Notes: a model not told the origin generated them from the letters alone. Shown: positions 9,615 to 25,844, counted from the stretch's first letter. The stretch is DNA of 53,651 bases from Parvularculales bacterium (GCA_036881865.1 JBAJNM010000010.1:1-53651), one strand, 5' to 3'. Translations and numbers: made by a program.

Positions 9615-10491
9615 AGCAGGGCGGTTGCCTCTTGCGCCTCAACCGGCTTATTGGCGCTCTGCCATGATGGGGTTGGTGGTGATGAATTATCTTGTTGGTT
9701 TGGCGTTAATTTTATTTTTGGGAGGGCTTTATGAAGTCATAACCGGTAGAACCGGATCAGCGCATAATGCAACCGTTGAAATCCCTTATGCGCAAGAGCG
9801 CGATATGGCCGCCGTTGAAAGATCTATTTTATCGATTCTGGAGACAACTCCCGGTGTGCTTTCGGTGCGTCCTATCAACAGAAGAGGCGTTATAGATCTC
9901 ATTCAGCCCTGGTTAAACGATGCTCCCGTTCCGGAAAACTTACCCCTACCATATTTAATTGAATTAACCTTAGAACCAGACAAAGCCCCTACACGTAGCA
10001 CTCTTGTGGCGCAACTTAACAGCCAGATTCAAGGTGTGAGTATTGAATACCATACAGAGACAAGCGCAAAAAGTGTGCCTATGGAGACGACTCTTTCGCT
10101 GATTTTGGGCCTTTTGGCTTTGCTACTGTTTGTCGCTGTACTGGCAGTAACAGCATTTGTCGTGCGTGTTGCACTTTATTCCCAACAAGACGTGATAGAT
10201 ACGCTTCATTTTATGGGGGCCGGGTTGTGGTTTATCATGCGCCGGTTGCTGAGGCGATTTACTTTGCCGGTTCTATTGGCGGCTTTGCTGGGGGTTGCTC
10301 TGGCATTGTTGACCTATCTGCCGTGGGTGACAGGTATTTCTACGCCATGGTCTTTGCTGGCCTTTCCTTTTGTTAGGGAGGGTCCCCTGGTTTGGCTTAC
10401 ACCACTGATGATTGTTCCGGTTGCAGAGATGGGGTTTGTGACTGTCGTAGCACGGCGTTTGATCCGAAAACACCTCAACCGCTATATCTAA
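9601..10491 (+). CDS. ftsX: Cell-division protein FtsX
   Basis: This 296-residue membrane protein has the FtsX topology. One transmembrane segment lies near residues 20-45, followed by a periplasmic domain of about 120 residues (ERDMAAVERSILSILETTPGV, in shorter pieces, is typical of alphaproteobacterial FtsX). Three transmembrane helices then span about residues 165-290. The start is GTG 9601, within ftsE (14-base overlap), so translation is likely coupled. It partners with the degenerate FtsE. Confidence 0.9.
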   Translation: MAHHRAGRLPLAPQPAYWRSAMMGLVVMNYLVGLALILFLGGLYEVITGRTGSAHNATVEIPYAQERDMAAVERSILSILETTPGVLSVRPINRRGVIDLIQPWLNDAPVPENLPLPYLIELTLEPDKAPTRSTLVAQLNSQIQGVSIEYHTETSAKSVPMETTLSLILGLLALLLFVAVLAVTAFVVRVALYSQQDVIDTLHFMGAGLWFIMRRLLRRFTLPVLLAALLGVALALLTYLPWVTGISTPWSLLAFPFVREGPLVWLTPLMIVPVAEMGFVTVVARRLIRKHLNRYI

Positions 10492-21451: not shown

Positions 21452-21753
21452 CCCAATTCCTTTCTATTGATTGGAGGTGAGAACACCACAATATGAAACC
21501 TGCATAGACTCCTCTGATCCTATTCACAATGCAATGCATTAATCCTCAAAATACTGCATTTTACCCTTAATCAATGAAAGTGATTAGGAGTTTCAATACT
21601 TAATGTTTAAGCCCGTCAGAGTGAAGAGTTTGGTGTCAGCGGTGGCATTCAAAGCATTTCGAAGCCCCGGAGAGCAAGAGAGACCTGTATAAGGCCCTCT
21701 AAGTTGGGTGATGCCTGACAGAACACCTTCGGTGATTGTACATAATATGGAAA
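21452..21753. other. Intergenic region between sodC and the mobile island
   Basis: The 302 bases hold the sodC upstream region and A/T-rich sequence leading to the outer element's left inverted repeat. I see no coding region with a plausible start and no recognisable RNA. The palindromic stretch TGCAATGCATTAA near 21529-21541 lies upstream of sodC and could be regulatory, but this is weak. Confidence 0.4.
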
Positions 21754-21780
21754 GGGGAACTATATACTAAAATACCCAAA
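21754..21780 (+). repeat. Outer terminal inverted repeat, left
   Basis: The 27 bases start GGGGAACTATATACTAAAAT and are the inverted partner of 25780-25806 with two mismatches. The transposase remnant begins a few bases inside. Confidence 0.75.
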
Positions 21781-21788
21781 TTCCAGTT

Positions 21789-21995
21789 TTGGAGCTTGAC
21801 TTTCGCGGCTATTACGATACCTATCATTACATGAGCCATAAGCACCTTGGGCGCTATGTGAACGAGTTTTCCGGCAGATATAATGACAGGGATAGTGATA
21901 CCCTTATTCAAATGGGAAACATTGTCGCGGAACTAAGTGATAAGCGACTTTCCTATAAGGATTTGATTGCCAAAGAAAGGGGCTTATATACTTAA
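21789..21995 (+). pseudogene. IS1595/ISXO2-like transposase, C-terminal remnant interrupted by the inner element
   Basis: The translated stretch FRGYYDTYHYMSHKHLGRYV, followed by NEFSGRYNDRD and KRLSYKDLIAK, matches the C-terminal part of IS1595 family DDE transposases (the RGxYGTYHHVSxKHLxRYVxEFxxRxN motif and the final GKRLTYxDL). The N-terminal two thirds, including the zinc ribbon and catalytic Asp residues, is absent. The frame now ends inside the inner element's left repeat. When 21979-23683 (the element plus one target copy) is removed, the frame continues GCC AAA GAA AAC TGA, giving a natural end at 23687-23689. Confidence 0.82.
21971..21978 (+). repeat. Target-site duplication, left copy (CAAAGAAA)
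   Basis: The 8 bases CAAAGAAA directly before the GGGG end of the inner element are identical to 23676-23683 directly after its other end. An 8-bp duplication is characteristic of IS1595 family transposition. Confidence 0.85.
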
Positions 21996-22002
21996 GTAAC
22001 GT
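21979..22002 (+). repeat. Inner terminal inverted repeat, left
   Basis: The 24 bases beginning GGGGCTTATATACTTAAG are the exact reverse complement of 23652-23675. The ankyrin gene starts 44 bases inside this end, so any outward or inward promoter lies close to the repeat. Confidence 0.9.
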
Positions 22003-22045
22003 AAATCTTGCTCACCTGTTTTTGATGGCTTTTTGGAAGTCTGGC

Positions 22046-23089
22046 ATGAAAACAATATCTACCATCCTTTGTAGTATGTTTTTTCTGGTTTTCACACCAG
22101 TGACACTTCATGCGCAGGAGAACGTGTTTCTGTCCTGGGGTTTCTGGAAAAATGCGACTGCTGCCGATGTGCAGGCTGAAATCGAGAGGGGTTCTGATAT
22201 AAAGGATACCTTTCACGAAGAAGACTGTTTGCCGCAAATCTGTAATAATGGATGGACACCCCTTCATTATGCAGTGCGTTATAACCATTCACCGGAGAGT
22301 GTTCGGGTCTTGATTGAACACGGTGTCCATATTGACGCAAAGACAGATTATGGCCAGACTCCTCTTCATTGGGCAGCGGACTACAACGAAGAGCCCGCAA
22401 TAGTCAAACTGCTGCTTGACCACGGGGCCGACATAGAGGCCCGGAACAGGTGGGGAAGTACGCCCCTACATGGGGCTGTAGAAAAGAATAAATCAGCAGT
22501 CATAAAAGCCTTGCTGGAGAGAGGGGCTGATATAGAGGCACGTGACAAGCACGGAACGACGCCCTTTCTCGGGGCAGTAGGTTTTAACGGAAGACCGGAC
22601 GTGTTGAAACTGCTTATAGAGTACGGCGCCGACATTGAGGCGCGTGACGGAAAAGGAAGGTCGGCTCTGCACTGGGCCGCCGTACGTGACGATGTGCTTA
22701 TGGCCGTTCCTATAGATGAAGCAATAGTTTTAAAGAATATTGAGTTATTGCTGGATCATGGCATGGACATAAATGTACGGGATAACCCTGAAAACGCAAC
22801 ACCTCTGCTCTGGGCGGCGGTACGGAGTAAAAGTCCTGCAGTGCTGGAACTCTTGCTTAACCGTGGGGCAGATATGGAGATCCGTGGCGGTGCATTTGGT
22901 CATACGCCTTTGCTTACTGCCGCACGGCTCACAAGCAATCCGGCTATCGTGGAAACACTGCTCAGGGGGGGAGCAGACGCAACGGCGCAGGATGAATTCG
23001 GTCGCACAGCATTTGAACTCGCCAAGGAGAATGAAAGTCTGAAAGACACCAAAGCCTACTGGCTGCTCAACGAGGCACAGTACAGGTAG
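22046..23089 (+). CDS. Secreted ankyrin-repeat protein (element cargo)
   Basis: The 347-residue protein has a clear Sec signal peptide (MKTISTILCSMFFLV... ending LHAQE, cleavage after about residue 23). It is followed by about eight ankyrin repeats of roughly 33 residues with the hallmark TPLHxA...LLxHGADIEAR (for example GQTPLHWAADYNEEPAIVK). Repeat 5 has a 13-residue insertion. Ankyrin repeats bind proteins, and here the product would act in the periplasm or outside the cell. ATG 22046 is preferred over upstream TTG/ATG codons because GGAAG lies eight bases before it and the signal peptide begins there. The C-terminal AKENESLKDTKAYWLLNEAQ recurs in a short ORF downstream. The partner is unknown. 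Confidence 0.9.
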   Translation: MKTISTILCSMFFLVFTPVTLHAQENVFLSWGFWKNATAADVQAEIERGSDIKDTFHEEDCLPQICNNGWTPLHYAVRYNHSPESVRVLIEHGVHIDAKTDYGQTPLHWAADYNEEPAIVKLLLDHGADIEARNRWGSTPLHGAVEKNKSAVIKALLERGADIEARDKHGTTPFLGAVGFNGRPDVLKLLIEYGADIEARDGKGRSALHWAAVRDDVLMAVPIDEAIVLKNIELLLDHGMDINVRDNPENATPLLWAAVRSKSPAVLELLLNRGADMEIRGGAFGHTPLLTAARLTSNPAIVETLLRGGADATAQDEFGRTAFELAKENESLKDTKAYWLLNEAQYR

Positions 23090-23167
23090 AGTGAAAAAAC
23101 ATGAAAAAACAGATTGTTACCATGGCATATAAACTTAAAAAAACTAGCAATACTGTGAGGGGATAAT

Positions 23168-23389
23168 ATGGAGATTGGACTTATAGTGTTTCTAGGAATC
23201 ATAATCTTATTCTTTTATTTATGGCTTCGTGTTGATGAAATAAAGTCGCCGTTTTGGAATTCGTTCTGGCATAACATGTGCATTGCTGTGACGATCTGTT
23301 TTTCTGGCATGTTTATACTTGTGGAAGATTTCACTCTTGTGGAGATAAGTGACTTTTTTAATAGAGTCTTGTTTCACTTGGTAACATGA
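23168..23389 (+). CDS. Small membrane protein in the ankyrin element
   Basis: This is a 73-residue product with two predicted membrane helices (about residues 3-21, LIVFLGIIILFFYLWL, and 36-52, MCIAVTICFSGMFILV). GAGGGG lies seven bases before the ATG. I recognise no family. It lies 78 bases after the ankyrin gene on the same strand and inside the same inverted repeats, so it may be co-transcribed. It could be an accessory or immunity-like partner, but nothing in the sequence proves a role. Confidence 0.55.
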   Translation: MEIGLIVFLGIIILFFYLWLRVDEIKSPFWNSFWHNMCIAVTICFSGMFILVEDFTLVEISDFFNRVLFHLVT

Positions 23390-23454
23390 AAGGAAAAAGC
23401 GGCGCTTGATGATATTCGACTTGCTCAAGCCGCATGCTTAAAGGAGATGTTCCA

Positions 23455-23613
23455 ATGAATAGAATGATGGAAGAAGAGCTTAGGGAAACGGCCAGTGGCA
23501 TGACATGCAAACAGGGCAAACAGGGTTTTACCCCATTTGACTACGCCAAGGAGAATGAATATCTCAAAAACACCAAAGCCTACTGGCTGCTCAACGAGGC
23601 GCAGTACAGGTAG
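23455..23613 (+). CDS. 52-residue ORF ending in an ankyrin C-terminal copy
   Basis: The ORF has a strong ribosome-binding site (AAAGGAG, eight bases before ATG). Its first 22 residues are unrelated to the ankyrin gene. Residues about 24-52 (GFTPFDYAKENEYLKNTKAY, then WLLNEAQYR) copy the C-terminus of the ankyrin protein at 22999-23089 with a few substitutions. It is either a degenerate remnant of a second ankyrin gene or a short expressed fusion. At DNA level the last ~90 bases are clearly homologous. Confidence 0.55.
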   Translation: MNRMMEEELRETASGMTCKQGKQGFTPFDYAKENEYLKNTKAYWLLNEAQYR

Positions 23614-23651
23614 AAATTTGTGTTTTTGGCTAAAATATTGGAAAAATGAGA

Positions 23652-23675
23652 ACGTTACTTAAGTATATAAGCCCC
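23652..23675 (-). repeat. Inner terminal inverted repeat, right
   Basis: This is the exact 24-base reverse complement of 21979-22002, ending ...AAGCCCC at the element boundary. Confidence 0.9.
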
Positions 23676-23683
23676 CAAAGAAA
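23676..23683 (+). repeat. Target-site duplication, right copy (CAAAGAAA)
   Basis: CAAAGAAA follows the right inverted repeat and is identical to 21971-21978. It is followed by ACTGACGG, which supplies the original last codons and stop of the interrupted transposase. Confidence 0.85.
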
Positions 23684-23816
23684 ACTGACGGTCTCTACGG
23701 AAGGTAGGAAGCGGGGCATTGAACGTCATAAGGAGCGCAAGACCGGTGCCGATACCCTTGCCGCCTTCTCCCCTTTCATCCGGTGCCCCATGTCAACCAC
23801 CGGAGGTTAAAACCTC
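23684..23816 (+). other. Outer-element spacer before the Sel1 gene
   Basis: This segment contains the tail of the transposase (stop at 23687-23689) and about 125 bases with no recognised gene. It ends with GGAGG at 23803-23807, nine bases before the Sel1 ATG. A frame reading RKRGIERHKERKTGADTL is open through part of it but has no start and no known match, and may be a remnant. Confidence 0.45.
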
Positions 23817-25328
23817 ATGAGAACGTTTCAAGAGTGGCTAGAACTTGCTGAGCAGGGCGATGCAGAAGCGCAATTTATTGTGGGGAAGAGGTGTGCCGAG
23901 GGAGACGGTGCCCCGCAAGATTACAATAAGGCCGTTACATGGTTTCGCCTTGCTGCTGAGCAGGGTAACGCAAAGGCACAAAATGGTTTGGGGGTGATGT
24001 TTCAAGCTGGGAGAGGCGTACCGCAGGATTACAAGCAGGCGGTAAAATGCTATCGCCTTGCTGCCGAGCAAGGCTATGCAAGCGCACAAATCAATCTGGG
24101 CGTTAAATATAAAACCGGACGAGGTGTACCGCAGGATTACAAGCAGGCGGTAAAATACTATCGCCTTGCTGCTAAGCAAGATCATGCAGAAGGACAATAC
24201 AATCTGGGAACAAGTTATCATAAAGGAGAAGGTGTTCCCCAAGATTACAAACAAGCGATAGAATGGTTTCGCCTAGCCGCCGAACAAGACCATGCAAGGG
24301 CGCAATGTGCTCTGGGCGTAATGTATGCAACCGGGCAAGGCGTGTCACAAGATGAAGTTCTGGCAATCCAGTGGTATCGCCGCGCCGCCCAACAAGGAAA
24401 CGCTAAGGCGCAATATAATTTGGGGCGGAGATATGCTAGGGGAAACGGCGTCCCGCAGGATTACGAGCAGGCAGCAACATGGTACCGCCGCGCCGCCGAA
24501 CAGGGTGATGCAAAGGCTCAATTTAGCTTGGGAATGATGTATGCCAGCGGAGATGGTGTTCCGCAGGATTATAAACAGGCGGTCAAATGGTACCTCCTTG
24601 CTGCAGAGCAGGGGATTGCAGGTGCACAAAATAATTTGGGGGTAGCTTATTACAACGGAAAAGGCGTTCCCCAAGATTACAAACAGGCGATGACATGGTT
24701 TCGCCTTGCCGCCGAACAAGGCCATGCAAAGGCACAATATAATCTGGGAGAGATGTATAATGAGGGGCGTGGTATCCCGCAGGATGACGAACACGCTTAC
24801 ATGTGGTTTAACATTGCCGTATCAAATGACCACGAAAGAGCAAGAGAAGAGATAGAGGACATTGTGAAAATGATGACCCCAGAGCAAATAACAAAAGCAC
24901 AATTTAATCTGGGAGTGATGTATAACAAAGGAGAAGGCATCCCGCAGGATGACGAACAGGCGCTAACATGGTTTCACCGCGCTGCCGAACAAGGCCTTGC
25001 GGAGGCACAATACAATCTAGGGAATATGTATCGCACTGGAAGGGGTATTCTACAAGATAACGAACATGCAGCGAAATGGTATTACCTTGCTGCAGAGCAG
25101 GGGATTGCAGCAGCGCAAAACAATCTTGGCCTGATGTATGCCAACGGAGACGGCGTTCTGCAGGACTACGTACCCGCTTACATGTGGTTTAACATTGCCG
25201 CATCAAATGGCAACACAGAAGCAAAAAAATCAAGAGAGGGTATAGAGCAACAGATGACCTCTAAGCAGATAGCAGAAGCACTAGCTCTGGCACAAGAGTA
25301 CATAAGAAAAAACTATCAGGGCTGTTGA
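23817..25328 (+). CDS. Sel1-like repeat protein with 12 repeats (outer element cargo)
   Basis: This 503-residue protein is made almost entirely of 36-residue Sel1/TPR-like repeats (consensus AEQGxAxAQxNLGxMYxxGxGVPQDYxQAxxWxRxA). I count 12. There is no signal peptide, so it is probably cytosolic. Residues about 325-360 (AYMWFNIAVSNDHERAREEI then MMTPEQI) look like the C-terminal cap that also ends the protein (AYMWFNIAASNGNTEAKKS then QQMTSKQIAEAL). Three more repeats follow this inner cap, so two Sel1 genes may have fused in frame. The start ATG has GGAGG nine bases upstream. Sel1 proteins act as scaffolds; the partner is unknown. Confidence 0.92.
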   Translation: MRTFQEWLELAEQGDAEAQFIVGKRCAEGDGAPQDYNKAVTWFRLAAEQGNAKAQNGLGVMFQAGRGVPQDYKQAVKCYRLAAEQGYASAQINLGVKYKTGRGVPQDYKQAVKYYRLAAKQDHAEGQYNLGTSYHKGEGVPQDYKQAIEWFRLAAEQDHARAQCALGVMYATGQGVSQDEVLAIQWYRRAAQQGNAKAQYNLGRRYARGNGVPQDYEQAATWYRRAAEQGDAKAQFSLGMMYASGDGVPQDYKQAVKWYLLAAEQGIAGAQNNLGVAYYNGKGVPQDYKQAMTWFRLAAEQGHAKAQYNLGEMYNEGRGIPQDDEHAYMWFNIAVSNDHERAREEIEDIVKMMTPEQITKAQFNLGVMYNKGEGIPQDDEQALTWFHRAAEQGLAEAQYNLGNMYRTGRGILQDNEHAAKWYYLAAEQGIAAAQNNLGLMYANGDGVLQDYVPAYMWFNIAASNGNTEAKKSREGIEQQMTSKQIAEALALAQEYIRKNYQGC

Positions 25329-25505
25329 CGTAATTAACGTCCGTGCTTCTAAAAACCCTGTATTCATTTATGCTTGTCTTGTTTCGTGGGGATATGTGAT
25401 AAGGGTGTGTCGCCTAGCAAGCCGTTTTCGGTAACGGGAACATCGATTCTACCCAAACAAGAACCTAGAGACAGTGGCGGCCTAATCTTGTGAGGAGTGA
25501 ATGTA

Positions 25506-25658
25506 ATGGCCGAAAAAAGCAAAGACAGAGGGAGACCCCCACGGGTTATCCCCCCGATTAAGGACACGCCGGAGCGTGTTGCACGGGCTACCATGCAGGC
25601 TCCCCCCAAAAAGGAGTGGGACTATATGAAGGAAAACCCTAAAACTTCTCATTCATAA
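25506..25658 (+). CDS. Conserved-looking 50-residue ORF at the outer element's right end
   Basis: The product is basic and Pro-rich: GRPPRVIPPIKDTPERVARA, then MQAPPKKEWDYM. GAGGAG lies nine bases before ATG 25506, and a perfect intrinsic terminator follows 22 bases after the stop, so it looks expressed. I recall similar short IPPIxxTPExxA...PPKKxWxYL proteins next to IS1595-type transposases, but I could not check this. It may be an accessory transposition protein; function is unknown. Confidence 0.6.
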   Translation: MAEKSKDRGRPPRVIPPIKDTPERVARATMQAPPKKEWDYMKENPKTSHS

Positions 25659-25680
25659 TTCTCGGTAGCTATAACGATGA

Positions 25681-25717
25681 AACGGCAATCCAAGACGCTC
25701 GGATTGCCGTTTTTTTT
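25681..25717 (+). terminator. Intrinsic terminator after the 50-residue ORF
   Basis: AACGGCAATCC at 25681-25691 pairs perfectly with GGATTGCCGTT at 25701-25711 around a 9-base loop, followed by a run of T. This is a strong Rho-independent terminator on the plus strand, inside the outer element's right end. Confidence 0.92.
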
Positions 25718-25779
25718 GTGAAAAATGGACTCATAAGGGGATGATGAAAAACTCAAGCAAAGCCATCAGTAAATGAGGC

Positions 25780-25806
25780 TTTGGGTATTTTAGTATTTAG
25801 TTCCCT
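25780..25806 (-). repeat. Outer terminal inverted repeat, right
   Basis: The 27 bases TTTGGGTATTTTAGTATTTA... match the inverted left end (21754-21780) at 25 of 27 positions. Chromosomal genes resume right after, with cytochrome b561 ending at 25845. Confidence 0.75.
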
Positions 25807-25844
25807 TTAGATAGTGCGTCAGAGTTATTCAGCGTCTAGGCAAA

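Follow-up and report, generated by a model that had tools for sequence, protein, structure and literature searches.

A probable decayed IS1595-type transposon with a Sel1-repeat passenger gene and a nested ankyrin cassette in a Parvularculales genome

We analysed a 53,651-nucleotide stretch of DNA from a Parvularculales bacterium (the window), and our results indicated that the segment between positions 21754 and 25806 is probably, with a probability of about 0.72, a decayed IS1595-type transposon with passenger genes, into which an ankyrin cassette was inserted later by action in trans. The outer ends of the segment enclose, in this order, the C-terminus of a transposase, an inner element, a Sel1-repeat gene, a 53-aa ORF and a terminator-like hairpin. 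The features identified were the following:

21754..21780, plus strand: outer left terminal inverted repeat, with a 29-nt arm from 21752
21789..21978, plus strand: C-terminal remnant of an IS1595 transposase, recognised by the PF12762 tail and by identity to the C49 transposase; its stop is at 23686-23688, beyond the inner element
21971..21978, no strand: left copy of the inner duplication, CAAAGAAA
21979..22002, plus strand: inner left terminal inverted repeat
22022..23089, plus strand: ankyrin-repeat gene of 355 aa, cargo of the inner cassette (Ank_2, 257 bits)
23168..23389, plus strand: hydrophobic 73-aa ORF within the inner cassette, without Pfam match
23434..23613, plus strand: 3' remnant of a second ankyrin gene (81-nt repeat, 90%), with its stop some 40 nt short of the inner right end
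23652..23675, minus strand: inner right terminal inverted repeat
23676..23683, no strand: right copy of the inner duplication, CAAAGAAA
23817..25328, plus strand: Sel1-repeat gene of 503 aa and 12 repeats (441.6 bits), open throughout, with GGAGG upstream of the ATG
25497..25658, plus strand: small ORF of 53 aa (...DTPERVARATMQAPPKKEWDYMKE...), without Pfam match
25683..25717, plus strand: terminator-like hairpin CGGCAATCC...GGATTGCCG followed by T8, read directly from the sequence
25780..25806, minus strand: outer right terminal inverted repeat, with an arm reaching 25808 and A in place of G as the first base

The two ends of the inner element were identical at 24 of 24 positions and were flanked by an 8/8 duplication; no transposase was found inside the element, and its 355-aa ankyrin gene is open. 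The stretches of the genome taken for the work on ends and duplications were those with ankyrin, Sel1, transposase or end matches, and a control search for pairs of ends with a duplication, run on 1.8 Mb of shuffled DNA, yielded none. The 8-bp duplications seen here agree with the habit of the IS1595 transposases, a family of DDE enzymes which work on the terminal repeats and leave duplications of 8 bp.

The match of the transposase remnant to PF12762 was confined to the final 27 positions (127-153), and its 16.1 bits fell short of the family cut-off. The remnant was 58% identical over 57 aa to the transposase of C49, 44% identical to that of C15 and 33% identical to that of C51, which are all IS1595 transposases according to PF12762 (151.9 bits for the domain of C49). 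When the sequence was read without the inner element and one copy of the duplication, the end of the transposase was restored (...SYKDLIAKEN, followed by the stop codon), showing that the inner element had inserted into the final codons of this gene. The inner duplication and the restored C-terminus together support the nesting of two elements that had been proposed for this region. A truncated IS1595-like transposase had also been proposed, and the C-terminal identity held; the frame resumes past the inner element. The remnant begins within a few bases of the outer left end, in the expected orientation, suggesting a deletion that extended from the inner edge of this end into the transposase gene. 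Searches at the sensitivity used showed no relatives of the fragment in named genomes or viral contigs, and plasmids yielded distant IS1595 transposases beside which no end of this type could be recognised. The outer segment carries no functional transposase and is not a complete transposon today.

The outer arms (21754-21780 on the plus strand and 25780-25806 on the minus strand) were identical at 25 of 27 positions and could be aligned with the ends of elements bearing duplications. The pair of 27-base ends described in the original prediction is therefore real, but its arms are longer, reaching 29 nt (21752-21780 and 25780-25808, 27/29 matching). These ends gave the sole two matches in the window with up to 3 mismatches (0 expected from 100 shuffles), and they were unique in the whole 2.33-Mb genome when a 20-nt core was searched with up to 3 mismatches. 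Further copies were found neither among 385 genomes of the class (24-nt core, up to 3 mismatches) nor in the viral contigs searched, so that the search for other full-length elements with such ends, which had been suggested as a check, yielded none. As had been anticipated, no target duplication was detected at the outer ends at offsets within 6 bp and lengths of 5-10, with one chance match of 4/5; the 8-bp comparison was TATGGAAA against TTAGATAG, and no nearby offset matched.

The outer ends start with GGGGAACTATA and AGGGAACTAAA, and the alignment of inner and outer ends revealed a GGGG...TATATACT core in both, corroborating the common start and core noticed previously. A single alignable family holds the inner ends, the outer ends and the end located upstream of a full-length IS1595 transposase at C15, where one GGGGATTATACGCTTAAGT end was present and a search found no second one. 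Regarding the surroundings of the locus, tblastn of the flanking proteins did not detect a syntenic flank near the tRNA-Ala loci of three other genomes of the order, and the DNA common to the locus and these three genomes is the adjoining tRNA-Ala.

The cargo between the outer ends, a Sel1 gene and a small ORF, is unrelated to transposition. The 12-repeat Sel1 gene had been correctly recognised (503 aa, 441.6 bits), and the small ORF is indeed present, but with 53 residues rather than the 50 assigned to it; a relative with 61% identity to this ORF occurs in another alphaproteobacterial family. The Sel1 gene is best explained as a passenger with no part in transposition, and its predicted product is probably a protein-binding scaffold, like other ankyrin and Sel1 proteins.

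Four Sel1 loci were found in the genome (C10, C22, C42 and C5), and the one at C22 (L039, 8639-10136) lies in a 1498-bp element with inner-type ends matching at 15/16 positions and an 8/8 duplication, TATAATAT. Inside this element are the remnant of an ankyrin gene, a piece weakly similar to a DNA methylase (22.9 bits, under the cut-off) and a broken Sel1 gene, whose protein was 57% identical over 155 aa to that of the window, with 72% identity in the DNA. The differences between both genes fell mostly at third codon positions (37/38/61), a pattern consistent with past selection on the protein. Given the insertion signature of the C22 element and the outer ends of the window, two of the four genomic Sel1 loci lie between such ends, and Sel1 recurs once (C22) as cargo with an insertion signature. 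The Sel1 loci from relatives of the order did not contain any pair of ends with a duplication within their 3-kb loci.

The right end of the C22 element has a second end-like motif, AGGGAACTATAGCC, buried immediately interior to its last 16 bases; lying downstream of Sel1, the buried AGGGAACTATA motif resembles the outer end. The buried end raised the idea that this was the same element as the outer one, which was dropped because the DNA from Sel1 to the end differs (118 vs 452 nt) and there is no small ORF in common.

The ankyrin genes of the genome showed a fixed relation to these ends. In six cases (C22, C14, C3, C31, the window and C49) an ankyrin stop codon was located 39-41 nt away from the inner edge of an end. 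All of these spacings except that of C49 came from a scan with an end score of at least 18, which 7 of 1500 random stretches reached; that of C49 was taken from the coordinates of the stop (9991) and of the end (9928-9951). The genome has roughly 25 detected ankyrin loci, most of them without a recognisable end of this type. This fixed spacing and the C22 element support the proposal of one family of ends carrying both Sel1 and ankyrin genes.

The region of C49 (L038, 9928-13700) bears an N-terminally truncated IS1595 transposase, two ankyrin genes and an inner-type end, which is the same transposase-passenger-end layout as in the outer element. The C49 transposase adjoins a tRNA-Ser and the apparent C-terminus of another transposase. 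Degraded IS1595 ends and fragments are scattered through the genome, and a multi-copy IS1595 element seems to interrupt the assembly, as at the end of C51. A 58-bp near-palindrome formed by two inner-type ends (L044, C3, 7033-7090) was located beside an ankyrin element without duplication; the ends of the C3 ankyrin element and of the palindrome match, but the duplication is absent and neither was counted as a proven element.

It could be argued that the two outer ends are the leftovers of separate insertions of the same IS, and that the Sel1 gene is resident chromosomal DNA which never moved. The absence of a duplication, the single copy of the ends, the transposase fragment cut off right beside the left end and the abundance of decayed IS1595 material in this genome are all in keeping with such a history. 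We nevertheless consider it unlikely, because a Sel1 fragment sits within a separate element with a perfect duplication (C22), the outer ends are convergent, almost identical and present only here, and the layout fits the one seen on C49. It is highly improbable that the outer repeat arose by chance or has a regulatory role unconnected with transposition: the missing duplication and second copy would fit such a case, but no match appeared in 100 shuffles, the ends align with the family bounding duplication-bearing elements, and the remnant of an IS1595 transposase begins just inside the left one.

According to the reading that we prefer, a decayed transposon with a later ankyrin insertion, the original outer element would have consisted of an end, a transposase, the Sel1 gene, the small ORF and a second end, and as a transporter IS it would carry Sel1 along with its own transposase. 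A deletion just inside the left end would have removed most of the transposase, the target duplication being no longer visible. An ankyrin cassette with ends of the same broad family and no transposase of its own would have inserted into the final codons of the outer transposase gene, duplicating 8 bp; an IS1595 transposase produced from another locus of the genome would have mobilised it in trans. Once the transposase had decayed, ends could still serve in trans, as described for mobile insertion cassettes (PMC3129680). The outer element presumably once moved as a unit, and its present mobility seems doubtful given the change of G to A at the tip of the right end. Movement of both elements by related transposases had been put forward earlier; the nesting and the relatedness of the two sets of ends are supported, but movement of the outer pair as a unit does not gain the same support, since neither a duplication nor a second copy nor an empty site was found.

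Insertion sequences with passengers and transposase-less cassettes are known kinds of element, as can be seen in PMC3129680 and in the 2009 IS1595 paper cited there. In the IS1595 transporter IS (tIS; Siguier, Gagnevin and Chandler 2009), a transposase and passenger genes lie between one pair of ends (PMC3129680). The outer element resembles the tIS in its passengers between one pair of ends and its terminal repeats starting with GGG, and its transposase is probably of the IS1595 type; it differs in lacking the outer target duplication, in having a Sel1-repeat gene as passenger and in retaining no more than a remnant of the transposase. We have therefore filed the outer segment as a tIS-like relic and not as an intact member, because neither a target duplication nor an empty site nor a second copy was found. 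The inner and C22 elements have paired ends, 8/8 duplications (CAAAGAAA and TATAATAT) and no internal transposase, and on these sequence features they were filed as mobile insertion cassettes (MIC) whose mobility in trans is putative. A candidate for their cognate IS in this genome is the element at C15, with its full-length IS1595 transposase and one similar end upstream. Like MIC231 of Bacillus cereus, an example cited in PMC3129680, such cassettes have IS-like ends, passengers and target duplications and lack a transposase; here, in contrast, the ends are of the IS1595 type, the duplications are of 8 bp, the cargo is ankyrin or Sel1 and the trans activity is putative.

Our literature search, in which subscription papers were mostly outside coverage and whose negative outcome is accordingly weak evidence, brought up no account of such elements carrying ankyrin or Sel1 genes, a cargo which as far as we found is new. 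Ankyrin and other eukaryote-like repeat genes have been reported to be enriched in, and laterally transferred among, sponge symbionts of Carteriospongia and Cliona (PMC8163846). The point in common with that study is the type of gene, since it reports ankyrin and TPR-type repeat genes to be enriched and laterally transferred; however, it suggests mobile elements in general and names no vehicle (the word 'transposase' is absent from its text), whereas here a specific vehicle was observed in one genome. A family of ends with ankyrin genes at a fixed spacing, and with Sel1 once under an insertion signature, provides a concrete vehicle to look for. Since the cassettes have no transposase, annotation pipelines are likely to call their genes just hypothetical repeat proteins.

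Related ends were also found in other genomes. The pattern GGGGNTTATANACTTAARTA matched 32 stretches in 84,980 named species genomes, most of them in the metagenome bins CAR1-3, CLI1 and SB0678, which belong to Aestuariivita, other Rhodobacteraceae, Flavobacteriaceae, Gammaproteobacteria and Hyphomicrobiales. The names of these bins, together with PMC8163846, whose text omits them, suggest that they come from sponges, and the genome of the window may have the same origin. Ends in both orientations were present in 5 of the 7 such genomes searched whole, compared with 0 of 7 for a reversed control pattern. Many of the external matches were true elements with 8/8 duplications, and related ends bounded cassettes and mini-elements in genomes of different phyla. 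Those of Aestuariivita included mini-elements some 109 bp long. The examples from Flavobacteriaceae measured 1628 bp, with an AbiEii gene, and 1940 bp, with a HepT-like/nucleotidyltransferase pair, and the one from Rhodobacteraceae, of 1425 bp, contained a TnpB-like gene; all of these elements had 8/8 duplications. Relative G003 of the order, which is identical to bin CLI1_bin_3 over 3021 nt, had an 8/8 duplication around a 799-bp element, whose one gene, of 231 aa, has no Pfam match. No ankyrin or Sel1 genes were detected by tblastn in the 32 external loci.

It is possible, although we hold it as doubtful, that unrelated bacteria sharing a host exchange ankyrin/Sel1, toxin-antitoxin and other cargo through a general vehicle, the IS1595-type cassettes with GGGGnTTATATACTTAArTA ends. 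If true, this would help to account for the way in which eukaryote-like repeat proteins spread laterally among symbionts.

Several loci deserve mention on their own. Flavobacteriaceae elements with the same type of end (L134, 532-2159; L220, 226-2333; L227, 240-2179; L139/L147) carried AbiE or HepT/nucleotidyltransferase toxin-antitoxin cargo, with duplications from 6/8 to 8/8. The main gene of the Rhodobacteraceae element (L222, 215-1639), which has IS1595-like ends and an 8/8 duplication, was TnpB-like (OrfB_IS605, Cas12f1-like TNB), and the 231-aa gene of the 799-bp cassette in the order relative (L129, 1501-2299; perfect 8-bp duplication) was lipoprotein-like. An element-like segment around a tRNA-Ser (GGA) gene (L130, 1501-2091) had ends matching at 18/20 positions and a 6/8 duplication. 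A 175-bp mini-element (L123, 592-766) had the ends GGTAATTATATACTTT and GGTGATTATATTCTTT and an 8/8 duplication, AAATCTTT, and similar ends were located at L109 and L125. Finally, a mini-element of about 150 bp (L144, L140, L154 and L223-L226) was common to bins of Gammaproteobacteria, Rhodobacteraceae and Arenicellales, with 75-95% identity.
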